Of a stretch of DNA of 14,760 nt, positions 1 through 14,760 are shown in pieces. Both the position numbers and the translations under genes were made by a program. Every line of letters starts with the position of its first letter. Positions within the stretch are counted from its first letter, which is position 1. This DNA is from an uncultured Helicobacteraceae bacterium. GTDB lineage: Bacteria; Campylobacterota; Campylobacteria; Campylobacterales; Helicobacteraceae. Location of the stretch: positions 1-14,760 of the forward strand of contig CAKVEH010000012.1 of NCBI GenBank assembly GCA_934728205.1, read 5' to 3'. The notes beneath the pieces were generated by a model, which saw nothing but the letters and a program-made list of their open reading frames with translations, was not told the DNA's origin and made no database searches.

Positions 1-1
1 A

Positions 2-100
2 CTTAAAATTAAGCCTCACGCTAAATATTGCATCGAATGTCGGGAGCATTTTGAGGAAAATCAAAACTTAGCAAAAAAGCGTGAAAAACTAAAAAGTTAA
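2..100 (+). CDS. dksA: DksA/TraR-type zinc-finger protein, C-terminal end (partial)
   Basis: Only the last 32 residues and the TAA are inside the window; the gene begins upstream. The readable tail contains PHAKYCIECREHFE, the second half of the C4 zinc finger (CxxC) typical of DksA/TraR proteins, followed by a basic helix ending in KLKS. DksA proteins bind the RNA polymerase secondary channel and act with ppGpp to adjust rRNA and amino-acid gene transcription. The next gene starts 18 bp downstream, so the two are probably co-transcribed. The family call rests on this short motif alone and the symbol is tentative; a shorter TraR-like paralogue is possible. Confidence 0.72.
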   Translation, partial: LKIKPHAKYCIECREHFEENQNLAKKREKLKS

Positions 101-118
101 AATAGTTAAGGAGAGAAA

Positions 119-1162
119 ATGAATTTTCGATATTACACACTTTTTTTATTTATATTTTGTATGGTGTTTGGCTCGTATTTATACTTGCTTGATTTGGGTA
201 TTTACGCGCCAAGAGTGCCATTCACTAACTATGAGCTTCCTCCGATGCCTGTGGCAGCGTGGATTTTGGCACTTATTGGGATATTTTTCATTTGCACGCT
301 GGTGCTCTTTGGTTTTTCGTGGGGAAAGGAATTTATGAAAGGCTACCATACACAAAGAGATTTTGGCAAGCTGCTTTCTCAAATTAACGAGCAAGCTCTC
401 AACAAGCCTATAGAATCACGAATATATAAAAATGCTGAAATTTCTAAAATTTCTAAAATCCTTGCACGCTTTTATCTTAAGCCCCGTTTGGATTCTAATG
501 AATGCTTTGAGTCAAAGATTGATAAACTTTTTGAAGATTACAAAAATGTAATGAATGGCAAAAATGTCGAATTAAAATCCTACAATTTGGCTAAGGACAA
601 TAAATTTAGCATTCAAAACAACAAAAATAAAATCCAAAATGATGTCAAATTTGCCTTTAATACGCTTAGCAAGGGCGAGCCTGAGGAATTACGCGACTAT
701 GCCCTCACGCAGATTCTCACCAATGGCGATAAAAAGGACTTGGAGCGACTTTTATCGCTTGATGTCGCCTATGAGCCACACAACTCACATATTAAAGAGC
801 TAAAGAACTCTCTTATTCAAGCCTTTGTGCGAGAAAACGAGGTTTTTAGCGTGGAATTTTTAGGAAAAACTTTTAAAAAATTAGGCTTTAGCCAAGCAGA
901 TTACCTCACTTTTACCAAAGCCACAAAATCCGTGCTTTTGCCTGATGTGTGGTATCACACGATTAAAAACTTTGCGGATAATGATGAAAATGCCGAAATC
1001 GCGCTGTTTTATGTGATGTTTGAGCTAGAAATGATTGAGCAGGCAAAAGAAAGGCGCGCTCTGCACGGCAAAGATGAGTTTGGGCTTATTGATGCGTATT
1101 TGGACTTACGCAAGAGTGGCAAGCGATTTCCGCTTGATGTGTTTTTAAATTACAATATTTAA
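119..1162 (+). CDS. Conserved-looking membrane protein, two N-terminal TM segments, function unknown
   Basis: A 347-residue protein I do not recognise by function. Two hydrophobic segments are visible near the N-terminus (about residues 6-24 and 46-66), separated by a short polar loop with PRVPFTNYELPPMP. The remaining 280 residues look soluble, mainly helical and charged, with no catalytic motif that I can name. The start is supported by a good Shine-Dalgarno (TTAAGGAGAG, 106-115) just before the ATG. The stop overlaps the ribosome binding site of glcD, whose ATG lies 9 bp downstream, so the pair is almost certainly one transcription unit. I have a vague recollection of a similar two-TM hypothetical protein next to glcD in Campylobacter, but cannot confirm it here. 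A role linked to the GlcD oxidase at the membrane is speculation from position. Confidence 0.85.
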   Translation: MNFRYYTLFLFIFCMVFGSYLYLLDLGIYAPRVPFTNYELPPMPVAAWILALIGIFFICTLVLFGFSWGKEFMKGYHTQRDFGKLLSQINEQALNKPIESRIYKNAEISKISKILARFYLKPRLDSNECFESKIDKLFEDYKNVMNGKNVELKSYNLAKDNKFSIQNNKNKIQNDVKFAFNTLSKGEPEELRDYALTQILTNGDKKDLERLLSLDVAYEPHNSHIKELKNSLIQAFVRENEVFSVEFLGKTFKKLGFSQADYLTFTKATKSVLLPDVWYHTIKNFADNDENAEIALFYVMFELEMIEQAKERRALHGKDEFGLIDAYLDLRKSGKRFPLDVFLNYNI

Positions 1163-1171
1163 AGGATAACA

Positions 1172-2569
1172 ATGCTAGATTCTACCCACATAAAAGCCCT
1201 GAAAAATATCGTAGGGGAGGAGAATTGCTACGATGATAAGGCCCATTTACTGGCCTACTGCTATGACGCTACGCGCGAGCGATATGAGCCTGAAGCGGTG
1301 GTATTCCCACGCGATGAGGGCGATGTAAGCGCGATACTCAAATACGCCAATGCGCACAAAATCCCCGTGATTCCGCGCGGTGCGGGCAGTGGCTTTACAG
1401 GTGGCGCGCTTCCAGCGCGAGGTGGGATAATCCTCGCTCTAGAAAAGCATTTCAATAAAATCCTAGAAATCAATGAAAAAAACCTCATCGCCCGCGTCCA
1501 GCCCGCTGTGGTAAATAAAATATTCCAAAACGAAGTCGAAAAACGCGGGCTTTTCTACCCGCCAGACCCCGCAAGCCAAGAATATAGCACACTAGGAGGC
1601 AATGTCAGCGAAAACGCAGGCGGAATGCGCGCCGCTAAATACGGAATCACCAAAGACTTTGTAATGGCGTTGCGTGCGGTGCTACCAAATGGCGAGATAA
1701 TCCGTGCGGGCAAAAAAACCATAAAAGATGTCGCGGGTTACAATGTCGCAGGAATCCTAATCGCAAGTGAAGGCACACTCGCCGTAATCACCGAAATCAC
1801 GCTCAAACTCATCGCTAAGCCAAAATTCAAACAATCCGCGCTTGGCGTGTTCCCCAGCATTGAATCTGCGATGAATGCTGTGTATAAAAGTATGGCAAGC
1901 GGGATTACGCCTGTGGCGATGGAGTTTTTAGATAATTTAAGCATTCGTGCGGTGGAGGAGAAATTTCACAAAGGCCTGCCTACTGAAGCGGGTGCGATTT
2001 TAATCACGCAAGTTGATGGGGATTTGGAAGTGCAAATCCAAAATCAAATCGCGCTTTTAGAATCGCGATTCAAAGAAAATGGTTGTATAGAATTTAAAAT
2101 CGCACAAAACTCGCAAGAGGAGGAGGATTTGTGGTTTGCTAGACGCAATGTAAGCCAAAGTATCAATATCTATGGCAAAAAAAAGCTCAACGAAGACATA
2201 ACCGTCCCTCGCTCGCGCCTACCTGAGCTGCTAGAGAGAATCGGGCAAATGAGCGAAAAATATGGCTTTAAGATTCCGTGCTTTGGACATACGGGCGATG
2301 GCAATGTGCATACAAATGTGATGGTTGGCGACCCAAGCAAGCCGCTAGATTATGCCGAGCTAGAGCGCGGGCATAAATGTATCGAGGAGATTTTCAAAAT
2401 CGCCGTGGAGCTAGAGGGGACACTTAGCGGGGAGCACGGAATCGGGCTATCTAAGGCCCCATTTATGCACCTAGCTTTTAGTAAGGCGGAAATGGATCTT
2501 TTTGGCGCAATAAAAAAAGCCTTTGACCCAAATAATATCCTAAACCCGCACAAAATGGGATTGGAGTGA
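1172..2569 (+). CDS. glcD: FAD-linked 2-hydroxyacid oxidase/dehydrogenase, GlcD family
   Basis: 465 residues with the full architecture of the GlcD/D-lactate dehydrogenase flavoprotein family. The N-terminal FAD-binding (PCMH-type) domain spans about 35-215 and includes IPRGAGSGFTGGALP (67-81) and LGGNVSENAGG (141-151). The C-terminal FAD-oxidase domain has HTGDGNVH (373-380), LSGEHGIG (418-425) and the terminal FDPNNILNPHKM (451-462). The family oxidises glycolate or D-lactate type 2-hydroxyacids and passes electrons to the respiratory chain, often through separate iron-sulfur subunits. No Fe-S domain is fused here and no glcE or glcF gene follows in the window, so partner and substrate are open. 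AAAGGA (1161-1166) overlaps the upstream stop codon. Parts of the gene are visibly richer in G+C (for example 1321-1380) than dnaN. Confidence 0.93.
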   Translation: MLDSTHIKALKNIVGEENCYDDKAHLLAYCYDATRERYEPEAVVFPRDEGDVSAILKYANAHKIPVIPRGAGSGFTGGALPARGGIILALEKHFNKILEINEKNLIARVQPAVVNKIFQNEVEKRGLFYPPDPASQEYSTLGGNVSENAGGMRAAKYGITKDFVMALRAVLPNGEIIRAGKKTIKDVAGYNVAGILIASEGTLAVITEITLKLIAKPKFKQSALGVFPSIESAMNAVYKSMASGITPVAMEFLDNLSIRAVEEKFHKGLPTEAGAILITQVDGDLEVQIQNQIALLESRFKENGCIEFKIAQNSQEEEDLWFARRNVSQSINIYGKKKLNEDITVPRSRLPELLERIGQMSEKYGFKIPCFGHTGDGNVHTNVMVGDPSKPLDYAELERGHKCIEEIFKIAVELEGTLSGEHGIGLSKAPFMHLAFSKAEMDLFGAIKKAFDPNNILNPHKMGLE

Positions 2570-2573
2570 GAAT

Positions 2574-2675
2574 CTAGTCCATTTTATTAGCGCGGTATCC
2601 AAGCGCAATAATACGATTTGCAAGCTCACGCTTTGTCATATTTTTTGCCTTTAAGGTGGCGTTGATTTGCTCTAA
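2574..2675 (-). pseudogene. Remnant of a helix-turn-helix-like small protein (C-terminal piece, truncated)
   Basis: On the minus strand the frame ending at 2574 reads LEQINATLKAKNMTKRELAN then RIIALGYRANKMD and a stop. The segment MTKRELANRIIALGY has the spacing of a helix-turn-helix and recalls the start of DUF6471-type proteins, which normally continue for about 30 more residues after this point. Upstream of about 2675 the same open frame continues to 2801, but that part is the antisense of the next feature and looks meaningless (MLSPCDSVFSHKDSLTLLL). I therefore read only the last 33 codons as genuine, making this a fragment cut at both ends, lying 5 bp from the end of glcD. Family assignment is weak; an unrelated chance frame is possible. 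Confidence 0.4.
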
Positions 2676-3084
2676 AATGCTCAGAAATGAGAAAAATAGA
2701 AAAGAATTTAGAGCGCACATAATCCGCGCTTGTAGCGAACTAATAAGCAACAAAGTCAATGAATCTTTATGCGAAAATACCGAATCACAAGGCGATAGCA
2801 AGGAATTAAGCGAAGATGAGATTGGGGCATTTATATCGTGTGCGGGATTTTAGATGGAAAACCCAAAGGCAACCTTGCAAAATATCGTGCCACGCTCCAC
2901 TACAAACTATCTTGGTATTCTTTTAGATGACAAGAGTAATAAATGGATTTGTCGGCTTTCGCTAAATAGCGCGAGTAAATATATACAAACGCCCAAAGAA
3001 AAACGACTTGAAATAGCCGACTTTAGCGACATTTATAAATACAAAAACGAATTGTTAGAATCGCTAAAAATACGCCTAAAATAG
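2656..3084 (+). pseudogene. C-terminal remnant of a type I restriction HsdR-N-like (COG4748-like) protein, interrupted by TAG
   Basis: The + frame reads a helical piece (RNEKNRKEFRAHIIRACSEL and ISNKVNESL), an acidic linker, an in-frame TAG at 2851-2853, then ATG and a 76-residue piece with NYLGILLDDKSNKWICRLSL, KYIQ and DFSDIYKYKNELLESL. The order 'GILLDDNNRKPICRLHFN...KYIG...LDDIYKY' is the usual C-terminus of stand-alone HsdR N-terminal-domain proteins, preceded in that family by a linker and a helix ending in 'N(D/K)(R/V)(I/N)NERL'. Such proteins are normally 300-400 residues with an N-terminal PD-(D/E)XK nuclease fold, which is absent here. The upstream piece begins only with a GTG (2656) or internal ATG, and no good ribosome binding site is visible. 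This is best read as a degraded 3' end left by a deletion. The alternative is that the 76-residue ORF (2854-3084) is still translated. Confidence 0.6.
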
Positions 3085-3220
3085 AATCTAATAGATTTGC
3101 TTCCAACAAAAAAGCCAAAAGCAATCCAAACTTAAGACAAAAAACTCAACAATCTATGAGGAATCGCGAGGATTTTTACAAAAATTTTATTTCGTTTAAA
3201 ATTTTGTTACAAATTTTTTT

Positions 3221-3275
3221 TACAATGCGTGTTTGATAATTATTTGTTATCAAAAAAATTTTTAATTTAAGGAGT
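3221..3275 (+). promoter_or_regulatory. ahpC promoter region with candidate operator (perfect 8-bp inverted repeat)
   Basis: The 3085-3279 intergenic is very A/T-rich and carries no ORF I trust. Two -10-like hexamers occur: TACAAT (3221-3226) and GATAAT (3235-3240). The second overlaps a perfect inverted repeat, TTTGATAA (3232-3239) and TTATCAAA (3247-3254) with a 7-bp spacer. Its inner 19 bp have the size and A/T character of Fur/PerR-family operators, although the match to the classic Fur or PerR box is imperfect. AAGGAG (3269-3274) is a strong ribosome binding site for the ATG at 3280. A metal- or peroxide-responsive repressor acting here would fit the gene, but that is inference. Confidence 0.5.
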
Positions 3276-3279
3276 TAAT

Positions 3280-3876
3280 ATGCTAGTTACAAAACAAGCA
3301 CCAAACTTTACAGCAGAGGCATTAAAAGCTGATGGGACATTTGATGATAAATTCGAGCTTTATAGCAACATAGGCAAAAACGGCGCGATTTTATTTTTCT
3401 GGCCCAAAGATTTTACTTTTGTCTGCCCAAGCGAAATTATCGCATTTAACAACCGTGTGAAAGAATTTAATGAGCGCGGGATTAACCTTATTGGAATTTC
3501 TATAGATTCTAAAGAGGTGCATTTCGCGTGGCGCAACACACCTGTGAATCAAGGCGGGATTGGCGAAGTTGCATTCCCAATCGTAAGCGACATCACAAAA
3601 GCGATTTCACGCGATTATGATGTGCTTTTTAATAGCGCGGTGGCATTGCGCGGGACATTTTTAATCGATAGAAACAAAGTCATTCGCCACGCGACAATTA
3701 ACGATTTGCCACTTGGACGCAATGTCGATGAGACTTTGAGACTTGTTGATGCGCTCCTTTTTGTCGAGCAGCACGGCGAAGTGTGTCCAGCGGGCTGGAA
3801 TAAGGGCGATAAGGGTATGAAACCTGATGCAAAAGGTGTGGCAAGTTATCTTGCTGAAAACGCTTCTAAACTCTAA
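3280..3876 (+). CDS. ahpC: Alkyl hydroperoxide reductase AhpC, typical 2-Cys peroxiredoxin
   Basis: 198 residues, the normal length for the family (called TsaA/AhpC in H. pylori). The peroxidatic cysteine is C49 in DFTFVCPSE, with the supporting T46 and R124 (ALRGTF). The resolving cysteine is C169 in HGEVCPAGW, so this is the obligate-dimer 2-Cys type. It reduces H2O2, organic peroxides and peroxynitrite in the cytoplasm. No ahpF-type reductase is adjacent; in Helicobacter the electron donor is thioredoxin/thioredoxin reductase, which probably applies here. The gene stands alone: its own promoter region with a palindrome lies upstream and a hairpin follows 7 bp after the stop. The ATG choice is supported by the AAGGAG six bases upstream. 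No anomalies seen. Confidence 0.97.
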   Translation: MLVTKQAPNFTAEALKADGTFDDKFELYSNIGKNGAILFFWPKDFTFVCPSEIIAFNNRVKEFNERGINLIGISIDSKEVHFAWRNTPVNQGGIGEVAFPIVSDITKAISRDYDVLFNSAVALRGTFLIDRNKVIRHATINDLPLGRNVDETLRLVDALLFVEQHGEVCPAGWNKGDKGMKPDAKGVASYLAENASKL

Positions 3877-3882
3877 ATTCTC

Positions 3883-3916
3883 AAGCAAGGTGTGTGATAA
3901 ACTCGCACCTTGCTTT
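3883..3916 (+). terminator. Probable ahpC terminator hairpin
   Basis: A perfect 10-bp inverted repeat, AAGCAAGGTG (3883-3892) and CACCTTGCTT (3906-3915), with a 13-nt loop, begins 7 bp after the ahpC stop. The downstream T-run is short (TTT then CGC), so termination may be imperfect. It lies between the convergent ahpC and ruvC genes, but the minus-strand orientation lacks a T-tract. Confidence 0.7.
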
Positions 3917-3965
3917 CGCACAAACTTCTATTATCATCTAGAATCTCAAAATTTTCTGTATTTGT

Positions 3966-4478
3966 TTAGTTGTTTTTGGATAATGGTGGATTTTTCGCGC
4001 CAGATTCTCGTAACTTTATGCGCTGGGAATGTGTAATTGCCACCGCAATAGCATCAGTAATATCTAAGGGTTTAATCTCGCCTTTAATGCCTAAAATTCG
4101 CTTTACCATAAAAGCAACTTGTGTTTTATCCGCTTTGCCATTTCCTGTGAGGGCTTTTTTGACTTGCAGAGGCGTGTATTCGGCAAAATTGCCTAAATCT
4201 TGGAGAATCTTTAGACTTAATGCCCCGCGAAATTGTGCGAGCTTAATCACGCTTTTTGGATTATAAGCAAAAAACATATCCTCAATGGCGACCTCATCGA
4301 TATTATGTGCTTTTAACACAATCTCTATGCCCTCAATAAACTCCATAATCTGTTCTTGCAAGATTCTTTGTTTAATTTTGATAAATCCTGCTTCTATGAG
4401 CTTGATGCCTGTGTTGTTTGATTGGATAATTGCATATCCACAATTTCTCGTCCCTGGGTCTATCCCTAAAATTGTCAT
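3966..4478 (-). CDS. ruvC: Crossover junction endodeoxyribonuclease RuvC
   Basis: RuvC cleaves Holliday junctions made and moved by RecA and RuvAB, as a dimer. The protein begins [18 protein letters not shown], giving catalytic D7; E66 lies in VAIEDMFF; D139 and D142 lie in [13 protein letters not shown]. The acidic tetrad is therefore complete. Length is 170 residues, close to the usual 160-175. I chose the ATG at 4478. The frame also allows a TTG two codons upstream (4484), but the ATG gives the conserved N-terminus exactly and has GGA nearby upstream. The gene diverges from dnaA across 118 bp containing the oriC1 boxes, and converges on ahpC. The tail (KNPPLSKNN) is non-conserved. Nothing is missing or broken. 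Confidence 0.96.
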
Positions 4479-4506
4479 TTTCAATCCACTTTAAGCTAAA
4501 ATATTT

Positions 4507-4512
4507 TATAAT
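4507..4512 (+). promoter_or_regulatory. Candidate -10 element for dnaA
   Basis: TATAAT in an A/T-rich context, about 85 bp before the dnaA ATG. Transcription from here would place the oriC1 inverted repeat (4535-4567) inside the dnaA leader, which fits autoregulation by DnaA. No clear -35 is visible, as is usual for Campylobacterota sigma-80 promoters. On the opposite strand TTGACG and A/T-rich hexamers in the same stretch could serve ruvC. Confidence 0.5.
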
Positions 4513-4534
4513 CGTCAAAAACAAAAATCCAAAG

Positions 4535-4567
4535 TTTTCACATTTCTTTCACGGAGAAATGTGAAAA
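4535..4567. other. Candidate oriC1: DnaA-box cluster in a perfect 13-bp inverted repeat upstream of dnaA
   Basis: TTTTCACATTTCT (4535-4547) and AGAAATGTGAAAA (4555-4567) form a perfect inverted repeat with a 7-bp spacer, TTCACGG. Three TTCAC cores occur: 4537-4541 (+), 4548-4552 (+) and 4561-4565 (-). TTCAC at positions 4-8 is, from memory, the core described for Campylobacterota DnaA boxes. The same 11-mer TTTTCACATTT appears again, in both orientations, between dnaA and dnaN. The repeat may also act as a hairpin in the dnaA leader RNA or as a DnaA autoregulatory site; its lack of a T-tract argues against a terminator. Confidence 0.72.
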
Positions 4568-4596
4568 ATATATCTATTTTCTAAGGCGATTATTTT

Positions 4597-5922
4597 ATGG
4601 AGATAAATGATATACTAAATCAGCTTAAAAACGAAATAAGTGAATACGAATTTGATACTTTTTTGGGGAAATTAGAATTTGTGAAATCCGCTTCTAAAGA
4701 GGATTTGTTGGTCTTTTTAGCTCCAAATGTCTATATTGCGGATTGGGTGCAGGTGCATTATGTCGAGCAATTAAAACTTTATGCCCAAAAACTACGAGGA
4801 ATCGAGCCTGAAATCCAAATAAAAATAAAACAAATTTCAAACAATGTGAAAGCTTTAGATACCAAAAAAAATGAGAATCTTGATGAACCTCCTTTAGAGC
4901 CATTTAATTATGACCAAACTTTTGATAATTTTGTCATCGGCAAATCTAATGAATATGCCTTTAGAATCTCACAAACCGTGGCACAAAATCAAGCCTCTTA
5001 TCCCATTGTCCTTATATACGGCAATACGGGCGTGGGGAAAACGCATTTGCTTAATGCCATTAGAAACCACACCGCACAAAAGGGAAAAAATGTCATCTAC
5101 ATTACTTCAGAAAAATTTTTAAATGACTTTATGCGCCGCATAAAAAGCCAAAAAGCAATGGAATCTTTCCGTGATACTTATAGAAAATGTGATTATTTAC
5201 TTATTGATGATGTGCAGTTTTTTGGCGGGAAAGAGGCTAGTAGCGAGGAATTTTTCCACACTTTTAATGAACTTTATGAAAATAAAAAACAAATTGTAAT
5301 GACAAGCGACCAACCACCAAATAAGATTCGCGGGCTTGATGAACGATTAAAATCACGCTTTGAGCAAAGCATTATGACAGAAATTGAAAATACCGAGCTT
5401 GACACAAAAATTGAAATTATCAAAAGCAAATGCGCGCTGTATGACTTTGAGCTTGATTCTGAAAATATCAGCTACATCGCCACAAAAATCAGTAACACAA
5501 GGCAGATTATGGGAATCATACAGGGGATAAATTTCCAATCAAACCTTAATCCAGACTCAAATAAACTTAGCATTACCAAAAGCGTGATAAAGGCATATTT
5601 AAAAGAAAGTATGGAAAATATTAGCGTAGATAAAATTATTAGCATTGTGGCAAAAGAACGTAACATTAAACCAAGTGAAATCACTTCCAAAGAAAAAAGT
5701 CGCAAAATTTCTCAAGCAAGGCGCATCGTCATTTATATTGCCAATGCTTTGACGCTTAATTCTTACGCGCAACTTGCCAATAGCCTTAATATGAAAGACC
5801 ACACTTCCATAAGTAAGGCTTTACAAGGTATTAAAGAAACGATGAAAAAAGATGAAAATCTCAAAAATCTCATCGAAGAAATCCAAAACAAAATAAAAAA
5901 CTATAATATAAGCGAAGTTTGA
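4597..5922 (+). CDS. dnaA: Chromosomal replication initiator protein DnaA
   Basis: 441 residues with the four-domain layout. Domain I (about 1-80) interacts with partner proteins and a short linker follows (about 81-105). The AAA+ domain has Walker A GNTGVGKT (142-149), Walker B LLIDDVQ (201-207), sensor 1 MTSDQPP (235-241), the arginine-finger-type segment GLDERLKSRFEQ (247-258) and sensor 2 around R302 (NTRQIMG). Domain IV is the C-terminal helix-turn-helix with MKDHTSISKALQGI (399-412) in place of the common RDHTTVLHA-type signature, a change expected for Campylobacterota DnaA that reads TTCAC-core boxes. ATP-bound DnaA oligomerises on oriC and opens the duplex. AAGG lies about ten bases before the ATG. 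The gene is flanked on both sides by candidate DnaA boxes. Confidence 0.98.
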   Translation: MEINDILNQLKNEISEYEFDTFLGKLEFVKSASKEDLLVFLAPNVYIADWVQVHYVEQLKLYAQKLRGIEPEIQIKIKQISNNVKALDTKKNENLDEPPLEPFNYDQTFDNFVIGKSNEYAFRISQTVAQNQASYPIVLIYGNTGVGKTHLLNAIRNHTAQKGKNVIYITSEKFLNDFMRRIKSQKAMESFRDTYRKCDYLLIDDVQFFGGKEASSEEFFHTFNELYENKKQIVMTSDQPPNKIRGLDERLKSRFEQSIMTEIENTELDTKIEIIKSKCALYDFELDSENISYIATKISNTRQIMGIIQGINFQSNLNPDSNKLSITKSVIKAYLKESMENISVDKIISIVAKERNIKPSEITSKEKSRKISQARRIVIYIANALTLNSYAQLANSLNMKDHTSISKALQGIKETMKKDENLKNLIEEIQNKIKNYNISEV

Positions 5923-5934
5923 GAAAAAATACGA

Positions 5935-5940
5935 TATAAT
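5935..5940 (+). promoter_or_regulatory. Candidate -10 element upstream of dnaN
   Basis: TATAAT shortly after the dnaA stop. If used, the dnaN transcript would have a leader of about 175 nt crossing all of candidate oriC2. No clear -35. Just downstream, two TTTTGGG repeats and a weak 6-bp hairpin (CTTTGT 5965-5970 with ACAAAG 5977-5982) occur, too weak to call a terminator. Confidence 0.4.
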
Positions 5941-6035
5941 GTAGCGTTTTGGGCTTTTGGGTATCTTTGTTTATTTACAAAGCAAAAATGTGAAAATATA
6001 AATGTATCAATGTGAATAATTCATTGTTGATAAAA

Positions 6036-6053
6036 GCGTAAAGTGCGTAAAGT
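6036..6053 (+). repeat. Perfect tandem 9-bp direct repeat inside oriC2
   Basis: GCGTAAAGT occurs twice without a gap (6036-6044, 6045-6053). It is not a TTCAC-core box. It could be a binding site for a second origin protein or a spacer; no function is assigned. Confidence 0.7.
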
Positions 6054-6081
6054 TTAGCAAATTTTCACATTTTCAATCGCT

Positions 6082-6096
6082 CTACTACTACTACTA
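6082..6096 (-). other. DnaA-trio motif (five triplets)
   Basis: Five perfect CTA triplets on the + strand, that is five 3'-GAT-5' triplets on the complementary strand, reading away from the last DnaA box. DnaA-trios of this type guide DnaA filament assembly on single-stranded DNA in Bacillus and other bacteria. The distance from the end of the box-like 9-mer (6062-6070) is 11 bp. Confidence 0.75.
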
Positions 6097-6121
6097 AAAT
6101 CTAAAATTAAAGGGGACTACA

Positions 6122-7183
6122 ATGAAGTGCAGTGTTTCAAAAACTCCATTTGAGATAATTTTATCAAACTTTCAAAGCTTTTTGGAAAAAAGAGATTTAT
6201 CGCAAATTACTTCACACATTTACTTTGAATGTGCAGACAGCAAACTTACACTAAAGGCTACAGATTATGAAATAGCCATTACCTCACAAATCGAAGTAAA
6301 TATGGAAGAAGAAGGAAAAGCCACAGCAAATGGTAAAGATGTTTTAAATTTCATCAAAAATCTTAAAGAAGGTGATATTTTACTTGAAGTGCAAAATGAT
6401 TCTTTAATTATTAAACAAGGAGATTCAGACACTACACTTGAAATGTTTAATGCACAAGAGTTTCCTTTAATGCCACAATATGACGAAAATCAACAAATTA
6501 ACATTGAAGCAGAAAAATTTCTTAGTTCAATGCGTAAAATTAACTCTGCCACAGATACAAACAATCCTAAGTTTGAGTTAAATGGAGCTCTGCTTGATGT
6601 GAAAGAATATGCTTTTAACTTCGTAGCCACAGATACAAGGCGTCTAGCTATCGTAAAGCACGAAAGTCAAGGAGTTAATACACTTGGGGTCATTATCCCA
6701 AAACGCGCTATTAACGAAATACTAAAGTTATTTGTTGATTCTATAGAAATATTTTTCAACGAAACTCATATCATCATCAAATCTCCGCAATATCTCTTTT
6801 TTAGCAAGGTAATCAATGGTAAATTCCCTGATTATGAGAAAATCATTCCAAAAGAGTTTTCTCATCAAATCAAATTACCAAAAGATAAATTTGTAGAATC
6901 TAACAAAATTGTAAGCTCACTTTCTCATAGGATTAAAATTACTATTACTAAAAATGAGATTTTGTTTGAATCTATCGGTGAAGACAACCGCAAAACACGC
7001 ACAAAAATTGAAATTCAAACAGATGTTGAGAACTTTACTTTCGGAGTGGAATCAAAATATCTCACTGACTTCCTCTCTCAAGTAGAATCAAATAAATTTA
7101 TTCTTGGGGTAAAAGAGGAAAACACGCCATTTGTTTTAAGTAATGATAACTTTAGCACAATTATTATGCCTGTGATTTTATAA
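6122..7183 (+). CDS. dnaN: DNA polymerase III beta subunit (sliding clamp)
   Basis: 353 residues, near the 355-375 usual for this phylum. The three-domain clamp fold is recognisable from KDVLNFIKNLKEGD, FVATDTRRLAIVKHE, VINGKFPDYEKIIP and the C-terminal TIIMPVIL, equivalent to the canonical MP(M/V)(R/I)L ending that lines the partner-binding pocket. The dimeric ring encircles DNA and tethers Pol III and other clamp clients, including in many bacteria Hda-type regulators of DnaA and Pol I. AAGGGG lies about seven bases before the ATG. The start sits only 25 bp after the DnaA-trio, so the leader overlaps the unwinding region. The gene is notably A/T-rich compared with glcD (for example 6481-6540). 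Confidence 0.97.
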   Translation: MKCSVSKTPFEIILSNFQSFLEKRDLSQITSHIYFECADSKLTLKATDYEIAITSQIEVNMEEEGKATANGKDVLNFIKNLKEGDILLEVQNDSLIIKQGDSDTTLEMFNAQEFPLMPQYDENQQINIEAEKFLSSMRKINSATDTNNPKFELNGALLDVKEYAFNFVATDTRRLAIVKHESQGVNTLGVIIPKRAINEILKLFVDSIEIFFNETHIIIKSPQYLFFSKVINGKFPDYEKIIPKEFSHQIKLPKDKFVESNKIVSSLSHRIKITITKNEILFESIGEDNRKTRTKIEIQTDVENFTFGVESKYLTDFLSQVESNKFILGVKEENTPFVLSNDNFSTIIMPVIL

Positions 7184-9535
<2,352 letters not shown>

Positions 9536-9539
9536 CTAA

Positions 9540-12272
9540 ATGAAAACTATCACGGTAATAGACACTTTTGGCTTTTTTTTCCGCGCTTTTTACGCCCTCC
9601 CGCCACTTAAAAATAAAGATGGATTCCCAACGGGCTTACTTTTGGGGTTTTGTAATCTTTTATCAAGTCTTTATAAAGACGAACAATGCAACTATATAAT
9701 TTTCGCCCTAGAAGGCAGAGGGGTAAATAGACGCAAGATTCTTTATCCTTCCTATAAGCAAAATCGCCAAGAAACGCCACAAGATTTAGTTTTACAACTT
9801 CCAATCGCCATAGAGTGGATTAACAAAATGAATTTGTTTAACCTTAGCATAGAGGGATACGAAGCCGATGATATTATCGCCACTGTGGCTACGATTGCAC
9901 AAAAACAAGGATTAAGCGTGCGCATAATAAGCCACGATAAAGACCTCTATCAGCTTATTAACGACCAAATACATATTTATGACCCCATAAAAAAGAGAAT
10001 TATTGGAGAGAGGGAATGCGAGGAAAAATTTGGTGTGCAGCCTTGCGAGTTTGTGGATTATCAAAGTTTGGTTGGCGATAGCGTGGATAATATCAGTGGA
10101 GTTAAGGGTATCGGGGCAAAAAGCGCGTGCAAACTCATCAAACATTTTGGCTCATTGGAATCGCTTTATGAGCGCACTGATGAAATTGCGAGCATTTTGA
10201 CTCCTCGCCTTGCCAAAGTCATTGAAGATTCTAAAAACGAAGCATTTATCTCAAAGCAACTTGTTTCTTTGGTGCGCGACATTCCGCTAGAGATTGATTT
10301 TGCTGCTTGTGCAATGCCAAGCCAAAATCCCCTTTTACACATTGTTAATGAATTAGAAGAATATGAATTTAAAGGGATTTTAAATAAAATTTTAGGACCA
10401 AATTCTAAAGCAATATCAAAAAATGCCAAATACGCAAATGCAGTGCAAAAAAGCCCAAATAAAGAGCAAAAAGACACTCACACAAGGTTTGAGTATGAAT
10501 GGGAAGTTATAACAGATTCTAATGCCCTTTTCGCACTTTTACATAGCATATCAAGCACAGCCCAAATCGCCTTTGATACAGAGAGCGATAGCCTTGATAC
10601 AAGGGTGGCAAACATCATTGGCTTTAGTTTTTGTCTAGATGAAAAAAAGGGCTATTATGTTCCCATTGCGCACACTTATTTAGGTGCAAACCAAATACAG
10701 ATTCCAAAACAAGAGGCAAAAAAAGCCATTGAGACGATTTTTGCCCACCCAATCATCGGGCATAATCTAAAATTTGACATAGCCCTTGTGAAAAAAAACT
10801 TTTCCATAGAGCCACAGGGCGAAATTGTTGATACGATGATTTTAAGCTGGCTCCTAGATTCTGCAAGGCCTGTGGGGCTGGATAAGCAAATGGCACAACA
10901 CTTTAATCATAAAATGATTAGCTTTGATAGTGTGGTGGATAAAGAGAAAAACTTCGCTAATGTCGAAGTGCAAGTCGCCGCCGAGTATGCTGCGGAGGAT
11001 GCCGTAGCGACATTTTGCCTGTATAAGCATCTTTTAGGCGAGTTTGATAAAAGAGATTTAGGCGAGATTCTTAAGTTGGCACACGATTTGGAGTTTCCTT
11101 TCATCAAAGTGCTCTGCGCTATGGAATCAAGAGGCATACGCATTGATACGACACTCTTTGAGCGACAAGATGACAAAATTAGCAAAATTTTACACACACT
11201 CACCAAAGAAATTTATGAGCAAGCAGGTGAAAATTTTAACATCAACTCTCCCCAACAGCTCTCAAACTTGCTTTTTCATAAGTTTGGCTTGCAAAGTGGC
11301 AGGGCAGTTAAGGGTGGTTTAAGCACTGATGAAGCCACGCTTAATAAAATCGTAGATTCTCACCCTATAATTCCTCTCATCCTTGATTACAGAGAGATGA
11401 ATAAACTTAAAAATACCTATATTGAGCCATTATTAAAATATGCTAAACAGAATCCACAACACAAAATCTATACTTCATTTTTACAAACAGGCACGGTTAC
11501 AGGGCGATTAAGCTCCAAATCTCCTAATTTGCAAAATATCCCTGTGCGAAGTGAATACGGGCGCGAGATTCGCAGGGGGTTTATCGCCCAAGAGGGTTGC
11601 GTGCTTATTAGTGTGGATTACTCTCAAATTGAGTTGCGCCTTTTGGCTCATTTTAGCCAAGATTCTTTGTTAATACAATCATTTATGCAGGACAAAGATA
11701 TTCATTATGAGACGGCATTGCGCCTTTTTGGAGAATCTCAAGCCCAAAGCAAGCGCGCGATTGCCAAGAGCATAAATTTTGGACTCATTTATGGAATGGG
11801 CGCAAGGAAACTTGGCGAAACACTAAAAATCCCCACCAAAGAAGCAAAACACTATATTGATAGTTATTTTGAGCTTTTTCCCACGGTAAAAGACTATCTT
11901 CACACACAAAAGGAGCTTTTACTTCAAAATGGCTATTCTCAAACGCTTTTAGGGCGGAGGCGATATTTTGACTTTGTCAATGCGAGTGAATTTATGAAAG
12001 CAAACTTTTTGCGCGAGGGGATAAATTGCATTTTTCAAGGGAGTGCAGCAGATTTGATTAAACTTGGTATGCTTGAGCTTCATAGGCGGTATCACACAAG
12101 CGATTTGCAAATGCTTTTGCAAGTGCACGATGAGCTCATTTTCCAAGCACCAGAACAAAGTGCAAAAGATTATCTTCCCCGCATAGAATCTATAATGAAT
12201 TCTGTTTGCGCGCTCAATGTTCCCCTTAAATGCAATGTAAGTGTTGCTACAAATTGGGCAGAACTCAAATAA
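9540..12272 (+). CDS. polA: DNA polymerase I with 5'-nuclease and intact proofreading motifs
   Basis: 910 residues, three domains. The N-terminal 5'-3' nuclease (1-about 290) shows D8, YEADDIIAT (107-115), SHDKDLYQL (131-139) and VGDSVDNISGVKGIG (178-192). The 3'-5' exonuclease domain retains all five catalytic positions: D346 and E348 (FDTESDSLD), D413 (NLKFD), Y483 and D487 (YAAEDAVAT). The polymerase palm has motif A VDYSQIELR (D693), motif B KRAIAKSINFGLIYG (738-752, F747 predicted to select dNTPs) and motif C QVHDEL (H863, D864, E865). Role: Okazaki-fragment primer removal, gap filling and excision repair. It starts 4 bp after gyrB with no recognisable Shine-Dalgarno, suggesting translational coupling. 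The fully conserved proofreading site contrasts with what I recall being reported for H. pylori Pol I. Confidence 0.97.
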   Translation: MKTITVIDTFGFFFRAFYALPPLKNKDGFPTGLLLGFCNLLSSLYKDEQCNYIIFALEGRGVNRRKILYPSYKQNRQETPQDLVLQLPIAIEWINKMNLFNLSIEGYEADDIIATVATIAQKQGLSVRIISHDKDLYQLINDQIHIYDPIKKRIIGERECEEKFGVQPCEFVDYQSLVGDSVDNISGVKGIGAKSACKLIKHFGSLESLYERTDEIASILTPRLAKVIEDSKNEAFISKQLVSLVRDIPLEIDFAACAMPSQNPLLHIVNELEEYEFKGILNKILGPNSKAISKNAKYANAVQKSPNKEQKDTHTRFEYEWEVITDSNALFALLHSISSTAQIAFDTESDSLDTRVANIIGFSFCLDEKKGYYVPIAHTYLGANQIQIPKQEAKKAIETIFAHPIIGHNLKFDIALVKKNFSIEPQGEIVDTMILSWLLDSARPVGLDKQMAQHFNHKMISFDSVVDKEKNFANVEVQVAAEYAAEDAVATFCLYKHLLGEFDKRDLGEILKLAHDLEFPFIKVLCAMESRGIRIDTTLFERQDDKISKILHTLTKEIYEQAGENFNINSPQQLSNLLFHKFGLQSGRAVKGGLSTDEATLNKIVDSHPIIPLILDYREMNKLKNTYIEPLLKYAKQNPQHKIYTSFLQTGTVTGRLSSKSPNLQNIPVRSEYGREIRRGFIAQEGCVLISVDYSQIELRLLAHFSQDSLLIQSFMQDKDIHYETALRLFGESQAQSKRAIAKSINFGLIYGMGARKLGETLKIPTKEAKHYIDSYFELFPTVKDYLHTQKELLLQNGYSQTLLGRRRYFDFVNASEFMKANFLREGINCIFQGSAADLIKLGMLELHRRYHTSDLQMLLQVHDELIFQAPEQSAKDYLPRIESIMNSVCALNVPLKCNVSVATNWAELK

Positions 12273-12314
12273 AACCTTAAAAACCCCAAATTCTATACAA
12301 TCTTGTTTCCATTA

Positions 12315-12345
12315 GCACGCTTTAAGTTAAAAAGGCGTGCAGTTT
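12315..12345 (+). terminator. Hairpin between convergent polA and nucT
   Basis: GCACGC (12315-12320) pairs with GCGTGC (12335-12340); the stem extends through TTT/AAA with one bulged G. AGTTTTT follows on the + strand, so it fits a polA terminator. The right arm lies in the last codons of nucT, so the structure overlaps the nucT stop codon. Confidence 0.6.
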
Positions 12346-12842
12346 TTATACATTATTTCAAAATTTTGCACCGCCTTTTGCACCACTTCATTTTGTTGTG
12401 TGAAATAAAGTAACTCATAGCTCCGCTCAAATGCTTGTTTTGAATAATTTGCCGAGCCTATAATAAGTGTTTTATTATCAATTATTGCCATCTTTTGGTG
12501 CATTATTCCTGTGATGTCGCCACTTTTTAATCCCTCTAGCGTGCAAACAGCAATATTTTTATATTTTGCTAGGTAACCAATGGTAGAGTTTTTGCTTTGG
12601 AGGTTTTGTGATTTGTCATAAATGACTTGCACTTTTATGCCTTTTTTGGCACTATCGCGCAAGGCATTGGCAATTTGACGATGTGTAAAGGTGTAAATGG
12701 AAATTTTAATTTCACTTTGTGCGTTTGAGAGTGCAGATGTGAGGGCGTTTAAAGCCTCTTTGTTTTCGTTAGGGAGGAAATAAATGCTTTGAGCAAAGCC
12801 TAAGGCACACCAAACAATCCACAAATGAAAAACTTTTTTCAT
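12327..12842 (-). CDS. nucT: Exported phospholipase-D-family nuclease, NucT-like
   Basis: 171 residues. A hydrophobic N-terminal segment (MKKVFHLWIVWCALGFAQS) reads as a signal peptide or membrane anchor. The rest is a single PLD domain with one complete HKD motif, H115-x-K117-x4-D122-x6-G129-S-x-N132, as in the small Nuc/NucT nucleases that dimerise to form one active site. In H. pylori NucT (HP0323) is a surface-associated nuclease linked to DNA uptake and to use of external nucleic acids as purine source; this gene is the likely orthologue, also because the adjacent gene resembles HP0322. AAGGAATG lies four bases before the ATG. Two cysteines, C100 and C167, remain after the signal and could form a disulfide in the periplasm. 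It converges on polA and diverges from the next gene. Confidence 0.9.
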   Translation of the reverse strand: MKKVFHLWIVWCALGFAQSIYFLPNENKEALNALTSALSNAQSEIKISIYTFTHRQIANALRDSAKKGIKVQVIYDKSQNLQSKNSTIGYLAKYKNIAVCTLEGLKSGDITGIMHQKMAIIDNKTLIIGSANYSKQAFERSYELLYFTQQNEVVQKAVQNFEIMYKNCTPF

Positions 12843-12929
12843 TTAACATTCCTTAAAAACTAAATTGTTTGGCTATAATACCCTAATAGCTTTAACGATT
12901 TTATAAAATCAATATAACAAGGGCGTGCA
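12843..12929. promoter_or_regulatory. Divergent nucT / acidic-protein promoter region
   Basis: An 87-bp intergenic with TATAAT at 12874-12879, a good + strand -10 about 50 bp before the ATG at 12930; its reverse complement also offers TATTAT on the minus strand, so the two promoters may overlap. A perfect 14-bp palindrome, GATTTTATAAAATC (12897-12910), lies in the + strand leader and could be an operator. AAGGGC precedes the 12930 ATG by seven bases. Confidence 0.5.
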
Positions 12930-14760
12930 ATGCAGATTCTCTTTATTAACACTAATCCAATTGTTCAAAAGCTTATTGAGGTTACAGCAGCTAAAGCAAA
13001 TGTGAGACTTATAACGGTGCGTGAGCCTAGTGAAATCGGTGATATTGCCAAATATGATTACATCATCGCTGATGATGGGTGTTATAGCATTGATAAGTCA
13101 AAATACAAACAGCTTCTAAAAAATCGCCGTGCGTGCCTTATCTACTCTAAGGAAATGTATAGCGGATTTAGCGAATATATTAAAAAGCCATTTATCCCTA
13201 CGCATATTTTAAACATCATCATTGAAGAAATCGCCAAGTCCAAAAAAGAGCATAGCTTTGAATCCATAGAAGAAGAAGTCGTGCCAGAAGATATGAGTGT
13301 AGATTCTGTCTTGCAGGCTACACGAGCAATGCGCACGGCTGAAGATTCTCTCTCAAGCCTTGACTTACTTTCAAAAGAGCTTAATATTAAGCACCCAGAA
13401 GCCTCACCACAAGACAAAGTCAATGATAGCTTTGCCAAGCAATCCGCAAGCGAGCCCCCAGCTAAAGAAATAAGCACAGAGGAATTGCTCGCAGATACGG
13501 ATTTGCACAAAGATGAGCAAACACCAGAACCCCTTGATATTGATGATATTAACCTTGATGATTTGGTCGATGAAGTAGAATCTGCTCCCCAAGAGCCAGC
13601 CAAAGACAATCCACCACCAGCCCCAGAGCCAACTACCAAAGAGGCTAATGAGGCAGAGCCAGCAATCCCAACGCCAGAGGCAAGCGACACACAACCACAA
13701 GTGCTTGATAAGGAGCAAATAAGCGAAGTGAGTGAATTGCTTGATGCTATCGGTGATGAATCAAATGGAGAGCCAAAACAAGAGCAAACCTCCCAACCAG
13801 CGACAGAATCTGCCCCAAGCGAATCCGCAGAGGATGTAATGGATGCAATGCTAGATTTAGCAGAGGCCCCAAGCGAATCTCCTAGCAAATCTGATACAGG
13901 TGGCGAGAGTGATTTAGATTTAGACGCACTTGGTTTAGAGCTCGCGGATAAACCCGATGAATCTGCGCAAGAAGCACAAGAGCTAGACTTAGATTCCCTA
14001 GATTTAACCCAAGAAGCCCCAGTCAAAGATGAAGTGCCACAAGAATCTTCAACCCAAAATGAGGTCGCACAAGATGAGGTCGATGAAGTCACCCAAGCGA
14101 GCGAGCCTATTGCACAAGAAAGCCAAGATGACAAATCTGATTCCAAACAAGTCCAAGAGTTTTTTGCTGATACAAGTGCTGAGTTGAGCGAGACTTCACA
14201 AGATAATGTCCAAGCTAAAGAAGAGCCAGCGATAGAGGCGGCAGAGATACCGCAAGATGAAGCGACACAAGCTCCACAAGAGGCTCAAGAGGTCGCATTA
14301 GAAGATATTACAGAATCTCTCCCACAAGAAGACAATGCGCAAGCAAGTAGTGCAGAGCCAAGCGTGGCTGATGAGTTAAGCGAGGACATTGCGCTTGATG
14401 AACCAGTCCTAGCAGATGTAGAAATGCCTGCAGATGAGCCTAGTGCGCCCACAGATGATATGACGGATATTGACATAGCCCAAGATTCTCAACCTAGCGC
14501 GCAAGGCACGGAGGACTTTAGCAATCTTAATGAAAGTGAAGTGGCAGAAGCATTGGGTGAAGAGCCATTGGCGGAGTTGCAAACCCCACAAGATAGCACA
14601 CCAAGCGATGAGGTGGCACAGCCTCACTCACAATCTGTCGAATCTGCCACCTCGCCAGCTGAAATAGATGCAGTGAAAAATGCCATAGGCAAATCTTTAG
14701 AGGGTGCGTTGCAGTCTATGACAAGCAATGAATTAAAAACACTACTTGATGGAATGGAAG
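12930..14760 (+). CDS. Large acidic low-complexity protein with N-terminal pseudo-receiver domain (poly E-rich family), 3' end outside window
   Basis: The frame is open from the ATG at 12930 to the window end, 610 codons, with no stop; the C-terminus is missing. Residues 1-104 look like a receiver-type alpha/beta fold: ILFINTN strand, KYDYIIADDG (41-50), ACLIYSKEM (68-76) and YIKKPFIPTHIL (83-94), whose KPF recalls the conserved Lys-Pro of response regulators. The acidic pair expected after the first strand is replaced by NTN, so phosphorylation is unlikely. Residues of about 110-570 are dominated by E, D, S, A, Q and P, with recurring LDxDxLxL motifs (202-211, 329-338, 352-359). A more ordered helical stretch resumes at EIDAVKNAIGKSLEGAL. 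Position next to nucT and composition match the H. pylori 'poly E-rich protein' (HP0322). Function is unknown; the disordered acidic region could be a scaffold or spacer. Confidence 0.85.
   Translation, partial: MQILFINTNPIVQKLIEVTAAKANVRLITVREPSEIGDIAKYDYIIADDGCYSIDKSKYKQLLKNRRACLIYSKEMYSGFSEYIKKPFIPTHILNIIIEEIAKSKKEHSFESIEEEVVPEDMSVDSVLQATRAMRTAEDSLSSLDLLSKELNIKHPEASPQDKVNDSFAKQSASEPPAKEISTEELLADTDLHKDEQTPEPLDIDDINLDDLVDEVESAPQEPAKDNPPPAPEPTTKEANEAEPAIPTPEASDTQPQVLDKEQISEVSELLDAIGDESNGEPKQEQTSQPATESAPSESAEDVMDAMLDLAEAPSESPSKSDTGGESDLDLDALGLELADKPDESAQEAQELDLDSLDLTQEAPVKDEVPQESSTQNEVAQDEVDEVTQASEPIAQESQDDKSDSKQVQEFFADTSAELSETSQDNVQAKEEPAIEAAEIPQDEATQAPQEAQEVALEDITESLPQEDNAQASSAEPSVADELSEDIALDEPVLADVEMPADEPSAPTDDMTDIDIAQDSQPSAQGTEDFSNLNESEVAEALGEEPLAELQTPQDSTPSDEVAQPHSQSVESATSPAEIDAVKNAIGKSLEGALQSMTSNELKTLLDGME

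Follow-up and report, generated by a model that had tools for sequence, protein, structure and literature searches.

A probable bipartite chromosomal replication origin around dnaA in an uncultured Helicobacteraceae bacterium

Introduction

When a short sequence recurs identically on both sides of dnaA, does it mark the chromosomal origin of replication, and how many of its letters is DnaA likely to read? The question is raised by a contig of an uncultured Helicobacteraceae bacterium (GenBank assembly GCA_934728205.1, contig CAKVEH010000012.1), of which positions 1 to 14,760 were analysed. This full stretch of 14,760 nucleotides (nt) is called the window below, and the term gaps is used for two intergenic regions in it: ruvC-dnaA (4485-4596), here oriC1, and dnaA-dnaN (5923-6121), here oriC2. 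A preliminary description of the window had proposed a bipartite origin, in which four exact copies of an 11-bp DnaA-box-like sequence, TTTTCACATTT, form two inverted pairs flanking dnaA.

Bipartite origins of the order ruvC-oriC1-dnaA-oriC2-dnaN, with loops made by DnaA and an inward and outward orientation of the boxes, have been published for Campylobacterota (PMC5043019). The same source describes the ruvC-dnaA-dnaN-gyrB locus as highly conserved in the class, several Helicobacter species excepted. Here we find that the locus is very probably where a Helicobacter-like campylobacterote begins chromosome replication, and that it belongs to this known bipartite type. Good support for an origin on both sides of dnaA comes from gene order, clusters of boxes, the class-specific TTCAC core, a predicted twin box and an array of DnaA-trios. 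The most telling part of the locus is a predicted unwinding module, which was absent from the preliminary description.

Gene order and DnaA boxes

Open reading frame (ORF) calls and Pfam matches show that the candidate origin region co-localises with ruvC, dnaA and dnaN. On the minus strand lies ruvC (3966-4484; Pfam RuvC, E 4.5e-57), which was called from a TTG at 4484, the start being, as judged by eye, probably the ATG at 4478. It is followed by oriC1 (112 bp, 25% GC), by dnaA on the plus strand (4597-5922; 441 amino acids (aa); Pfam DnaA_N, Bac_DnaA and Bac_DnaA_C), by oriC2 (199 bp, 28% GC) and by dnaN (6122-7183, plus strand; Pfam DNA_pol3_beta domains). The plus-strand gene gyrB (7217-9535; Pfam) completes the order ruvC-dnaA-dnaN-gyrB, which is retained in this Helicobacter-like organism.

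Clusters of boxes with a TTCAC core were found both upstream and downstream of dnaA. Each gap holds three such cores, compared with shuffle means of 0.20 in oriC1 (P 0.0002) and 0.33 in oriC2 (P 0.0032; 5,000 shuffles each). The three DnaA-box-like sites of oriC1 begin with the predicted box GTTTTCACA (4534-4542, plus strand), which corresponds to the first exact copy of the 11-mer (4535-4545). Head-to-tail with it, after a 2-bp gap (an 11-bp step), stands the probably weaker box TCTTTCACG (4545-4553, plus strand), whereas the predicted box TTTTTCACA (4560-4568, minus strand), which corresponds to the second copy (4557-4567), is opposed to both. In oriC2 a predicted, outward-facing box ATTTTCACA (5989-5997, minus strand) corresponds to the third copy (5986-5996), and the predicted box TTATTCACA (6011-6019, minus strand) lies in the same orientation 22 bp, or 2.1 helical turns, further on. 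A second predicted ATTTTCACA box (6061-6069, plus strand), which corresponds to the fourth copy (6062-6072), points towards the DNA unwinding element (DUE) and would be the DUE-proximal, R1-type box. The preliminary description was accurate on these points: copies at 4535-4545 (+), 4557-4567 (-), 5986-5996 (-) and 6062-6072 (+), one opposed pair on each side of dnaA, head-to-head upstream and tail-to-tail downstream, and one further TTCAC-core box per side (TCTTTCACG and TTATTCACA).

No other exact copy of TTTTCACATTT exists in the window, and a single site, at 2685, differs from it by one mismatch. With one mismatch allowed, at least five matches were reached in 5 of 200 whole-window shuffles, so that the number of copies by itself is only moderately unusual. 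Their placement is stronger evidence. When both gaps were shuffled with their dinucleotides preserved (n = 20,000), some 11-mer reached four copies in 53 shuffles and a 2+2 split in 4; the test admitted any 11-mer on either strand and left orientation out.

The pairs had also been called mirror-like, which is an overstatement because they differ in polarity and spacing: the oriC1 pair is convergent, with the centres of its 9-mers 26 bp apart, and the oriC2 pair is divergent, with centres 72 bp apart. As a special feature the symmetry is weak, since inward-facing terminal boxes in oriC1 and outward-facing ones in oriC2 have already been described for Wolinella succinogenes and Sulfurimonas denitrificans. 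The arms do reach past 11 bp: each pair is an inverted repeat that is perfect over 13 bp (4535-4547/4555-4567 and 5985-5997/6061-6073), with 7 nt between the arms in oriC1 and 63 nt in oriC2. The oriC1 repeat (4535-4567), built from the boxes around its 7-nt centre, can fold as a DNA hairpin; the single-stranded fold of 4525-4580 reaches -11.4 kcal/mol (z -5.07; equally stable in 0 of 200 shuffles), and shuffling of the oriC1 stretch produced a 13-bp inverted repeat with a spacer no longer than 20 in 7 of 20,000 trials. Neighbouring boxes of the same orientation stand 11 and 22 bp apart; in the opposed pair of oriC1 the distance is 26 bp (2.48 turns). This helical phasing is suggestive only.

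Predicted unwinding module

The last base of the DUE-proximal box is shared by a predicted weak twin box, ATTTTCAAT (6069-6077, plus strand), in which C8 is changed to A. There follow a short GC-containing spacer, CGCT (6078-6081, plus strand), and a perfect DnaA-trio array of five CTA triplets (6082-6096, plus strand), which read as five TAG on the bottom strand. These trios and the AT-rich DNA beyond them constitute the DUE (6082-6112) as predicted by sequence and nearest-neighbour energy. The array has no second exact copy in the window, and shuffles give a mean of 0.01 at two or fewer mismatches. Within oriC2, stability is lowest over the 30 bp at 6083-6112 (nearest-neighbour energy z 2.32); of 14,731 positions in the window, 34 are less stable than 6082-6111.

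From the strong box at 6061-6069 to the first trio at 6082 there are 12 nt, and by sequence the box is aimed at the predicted AT-rich DUE of the dnaA-dnaN gap from within the distance of about 8-18 bp expected of campylobacterote bipartite origins. As published, an unwinding module comprises a single DnaA box or a pair, three or more DnaA-trios and, between them, a spacer for which lengths up to 16 bp were searched, with a peak around 10-13 (PMC8287927). With its predicted twin, 12 nt and five trios the present arrangement conforms to this rule of the basal unwinding system (BUS), by which a box or tandem boxes, a spacer of 16 bp or less and at least three trios are expected. As predicted from sequence, then, twin box, CGCT, five trios and AT-rich DNA make up a textbook unwinding module. 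Triplets of this type, though less regular, are also present in the DUE of Helicobacter pylori (PMC10316083), where their disruption, reversal or randomisation resulted in marginal or no unwinding (PMC8235120).

Between the outward-facing and the DUE-proximal boxes of oriC2 there is also a perfect tandem 9-mer, two copies of GCGTAAAGT (6036-6053), which is possibly a site for another origin protein.

Extension of the DnaA boxes

A conservation longer than usual, over 11 bp instead of nine, had been claimed for the boxes, and inside this window the claim can be upheld. ATT stands directly 3' of TTCAC in five of six gap boxes and in one of the 30 other window sites (Fisher p 9e-5), while ATTT does so in four of the six and in none of the 30 elsewhere. 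This comparison with coding DNA is lenient because the gaps are AT-rich; when gap composition is used and independence is assumed, the chance of ATT in at least five of six boxes is about 1.6e-6. The sequence TTCACATT occurs six times in the window where 1.09 are expected, a number reached in 0 of 200 shuffles. The ATT motif was picked after inspection of the data. The sole TTCACATT beyond both gaps, which is also the single outside case of ATT, lies inside dnaA (4843-4850, minus strand), where it is a candidate for an extra DnaA site on the strength of its letters.

Four causes of the extension were considered: a true DnaA preference at positions 10-12, remnants of twin boxes that overlapped, copying from box to box, and a second protein. 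The 3' TTT of the copy at 6062-6072 is also the start of the overlapping, predicted weak second box, and a twin-box relic is clear at 6069 only. Helix 5 of domain IV of this DnaA reads K400 D401 H402 T403 S404 I405 S406 K407 when aligned to solved DnaA chains and 32 homologues. Lysine, serine and lysine, all class-typical, occupy the equivalents of Escherichia coli positions 432, 438 and 439, as placed by the DH dyad; these substitutions are among those that may underlie the preference for TTCAC, as tendencies and not as strict rules (PMC5043019).

The five campylobacterote DnaA-box consensuses in the passages searched end at nine positions (PMC5043019, PMC6052347). Outside the group, the boxes of Thermotoga maritima are named as 12-mers, of which the terminal three bases are moderately conserved only. 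A literature search for an 11-mer DnaA box in Helicobacter, mostly not covering subscription papers, gave no match, and the ATT extension, a modest point, is the one feature that goes beyond the literature covered. A tentative proposal, which we consider rather unlikely, is that the DnaA site in this Helicobacter lineage is longer than the 9-mer of the class, NNNTTCACATT(T), with a real preference at positions 10-12. The palindromic oriC1 would then consist of two head-to-head extended boxes, a compact and possibly cruciform-capable unit dedicated to the capture of the oriC2 complex or to the silencing of dnaA. If DnaA does read the 3' extension, the DnaA-box consensus of the group would be revised and origin prediction would become sharper.

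Alternative explanations

The extra conservation could instead stem from a competing replication inhibitor and not from looping, the 11-mer being a site shared by DnaA and the orphan response regulator HP1021/Cj1509. In Campylobacter jejuni, Cj1509 box 1 reads TTTCACA, and DnaA box 2 shares bases with one of the Cj1509 sites (PMC6052347). TTTCACA lies within all four 11-mers, and four of its 11 copies in the window fall in the gaps where 0.07 are expected (four were reached in 0 of 2,000 shuffles); the relaxed Cj1509 consensus WKTHWCA has 12 of its 118 window sites in the gaps compared with 2.71 expected (0 of 2,000 shuffles). However, nine of these 12 coincide at least in part with a DnaA box or with the twin; the remaining three (5973, 6003 and 6028) are at shuffle level, so that DnaA boxes alone can explain the excess. 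TTTCACA is moreover contained wholly in the 9-mer, which leaves the 3' ATT(T) unexplained; the HP1021 consensus TGTTWCW, with five sites in the window, occurs in neither gap; and none of the genes named in the window is that of the regulator, although no search aimed at it was made. We consider a shared site as the source of the conservation quite unlikely. Overlap of regulator and DnaA sites is a mode of inhibition published for C. jejuni and H. pylori (PMC6052347), and for this reason such inhibition may well be at work here in addition.

It also seems improbable that the oriC1 palindrome is mainly an operator, serving DnaA autorepression or some other dimeric regulator in a divergent ruvC/dnaA promoter region outside the origin. 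A perfect 13-bp palindrome between divergent genes, with TATAAT at 4507-4512 upstream of it, would suit such a role, but TATAAT is at chance frequency in the window (14 versus 15.2 expected). A consensus scan finds no sigma-70-like promoter in either gap, although the scan was uninformative (5 found versus 7.5 expected). Against an operator outside the origin it also tells that the same 11-mer appears again in oriC2 beside the predicted DUE and that oriC1 is bound by DnaA in three relatives (PMC5043019). Operator and origin roles can coexist.

That the shared 11-mer is a product of AT-rich composition around short 9-mer boxes is very unlikely. The two gaps together are 73% A+T and the one-mismatch count was equalled in the 5 of 200 whole-window shuffles mentioned above, as composition would have it; yet it gave the 2+2 placement in just 4 of 20,000 shuffles, and against it stand also the ATT after the core (five of six against one of 30) and the excess of TTCACATT, the motif having been picked post hoc. 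An RNA hairpin or terminator in the oriC1 inverted repeat is hardly credible and was rejected: the one terminator-like site found by scanning, on the minus strand (4567-4535), compares with 1.3 expected, has three G-C pairs out of 13 and lies between divergent gene starts, and no Rfam family reaches its gathering score anywhere in the window.

Model of initiation

For the bipartite origin, the following course of events can be pictured from its relatives and from the modules seen in the sequence. DnaA would bind the six TTCAC boxes flanking dnaA, most readily those in oriC2. The DUE-proximal twin box (6061-6077) would then load DnaA over the short spacer onto the five bottom-strand TAG trinucleotides, and the loaded DnaA would open the AT-rich DUE just upstream of dnaN. 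The opposed boxes of oriC1 may hold a second DnaA cluster that makes contact with the oriC2 complex, with dnaA looped out, as electron microscopy (EM) on relatives suggests. Because the oriC1 boxes lie upstream of the dnaA start, they may also allow DnaA to control its own gene.

By analogy, bridging of oriC1 and oriC2 by DnaA, which the preliminary description had put forward, would be a sound inference. It is an existing model and not a new one, since both the orientation of the boxes and EM loops have been reported for relatives; in three species, loops joining the sub-origins were seen in about 25-30% of bound molecules (PMC5043019).

Several observations weigh against an origin of this kind. 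C. jejuni, a member of the same phylum, probably has a monopartite origin without loops (PMC6052347), so looping cannot be assumed. The published 9-mer consensuses are matched by two of the six boxes for W. succinogenes, four for Arcobacter butzleri, one each for S. denitrificans and H. pylori, and four for the stringent version of C. jejuni. Across 4.5-6.1 kb the 14.8-kb window gives no clear switch of GC skew, a signal too noisy over 15 kb for this to amount to a refutation; the cumulative curve dips to a shallow local minimum at about 6.6-7.2 kb, but its rise begins already before 3.9 kb. Third-position skew of the top strand is +0.05, -0.11, -0.14 and +0.03 for the four left-hand genes, and -0.20, -0.24, 0.00, -0.09 and +0.25 from dnaA to the PLD-like gene. 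The instability of the DUE is not unique either, as ten other non-overlapping 30-mers of the window rank ahead of it.

Two further consensuses were compared with the window. H. pylori ATP-DnaA boxes (TYATTCCWT) have no match in it. The relaxed DnaA consensus of C. jejuni, NHHWDCAMH, is unselective: it has 316 window matches, of which 13 fall in the gaps versus 7.17 expected (as many in 15 of 2,000 shuffles).

As it stands, the locus confirms known biology. It adds a clearly readable origin for a Helicobacter that keeps the ruvC-dnaA-dnaN-gyrB order, and it displays the module of twin box, spacer and trios in near-ideal form. Its unusual points are modest: the letters that its boxes have in common outnumber those of the published consensus, and one pair is a perfect palindrome.

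Relatives and other features of the window

Among the best 120 of 6,253 matches listed for DnaA, the closest relative is that of Helicobacter sp. 23-1046 (98% identity); seven further entries have 85-89% identity, a Helicobacter metagenome-assembled genome (MAG) 64% and Helicobacter himalayensis 59%. A literature search on the name Helicobacter sp. 23-1046, in which subscription papers were mostly not covered, gave no match. A contig search with a single-protein query found matches only in Gemella and one Oscillospiraceae MAG (2 of 49 pattern hits). In viral contigs, 186 pattern hits gave 41 loci with best-segment identities of 20-44%, the 44% over 41 residues only. All 66 plasmid records and all 42 phage records fell in the band below 60% identity, the highest values being 37% among the best 30 of 66 rows and 38% among the best 20 of 42 rows, respectively. 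A DNA-level search of plasmids gave no match.

PolA is also named in the window by Pfam. A 347-aa open frame (119-1162) and two short adjoining open frames of 65 and 76 aa (2656-3084) have no Pfam match at E 0.001. The minus strand encodes a small PLD-like (PLDc_2) protein (12327-12842) whose N-terminus looks signal-like by eye. A long plus-strand open frame of 610 aa (12930-14759) leaves the window; its GC content rises to about 0.45-0.48, and after about 100 ordinary residues it appears by eye to be rich in Asp, Glu, Ser, Pro and Ala.

Comparison with known origins

The closest published counterparts are the origins of W. succinogenes and S. denitrificans (PMC5043019), with which the present locus shares the order ruvC-oriC1-dnaA-oriC2-dnaN, boxes with a TTCAC core, terminal boxes facing inward in oriC1 and outward in oriC2, and a DUE with DnaA-trio in the dnaA-dnaN gap, here predicted. 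Those origins have 8-10 footprinted boxes each, whereas six TTCAC boxes and one predicted twin were read from the DNA here. Unlike in those two species, four boxes of the present locus have 11 identical letters in common. The perfect 13-bp palindrome of oriC1 finds no mention for either species in the passages of PMC5043019 that were searched.

H. pylori (PMC8235120) likewise has a bipartite origin around dnaA, with twin DUE-proximal boxes, a GC-rich spacer, DnaA-trios and an AT-rich tract. Its dnaA has other neighbours (punB-comH), its trios are not as regular as the five CTA found here (PMC10316083), and its classic boxes, TYATTCACN, are matched by one of our six, its ATP boxes by no site in the window. 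C. jejuni (PMC6052347) shares the twin boxes that overlap by 1 bp ahead of the DUE, predicted in our case, and in both the twin near the DUE has C8 changed to A (AATTTCAAC, C. jejuni DnaA box 1, and ATTTTCAAT here). It also has DnaA sites inside dnaA, for which 4843-4850 is the one candidate here; it differs in a probably monopartite origin, a degenerate trio and the lack of a GC-rich spacer.

Beyond the phylum, the BUS of Bacillus subtilis and others (PMC8287927, PMC8235120) has the same tandem boxes, spacer and DnaA-trios, and in B. subtilis a two-part origin likewise surrounds dnaA. There, oriC1 spans 620 bp with 13 boxes and oriC2 has seven; in the bacterium described here, oriC1 has three boxes in its 112 bp and oriC2 three, with the predicted twin in addition, in 199 bp.

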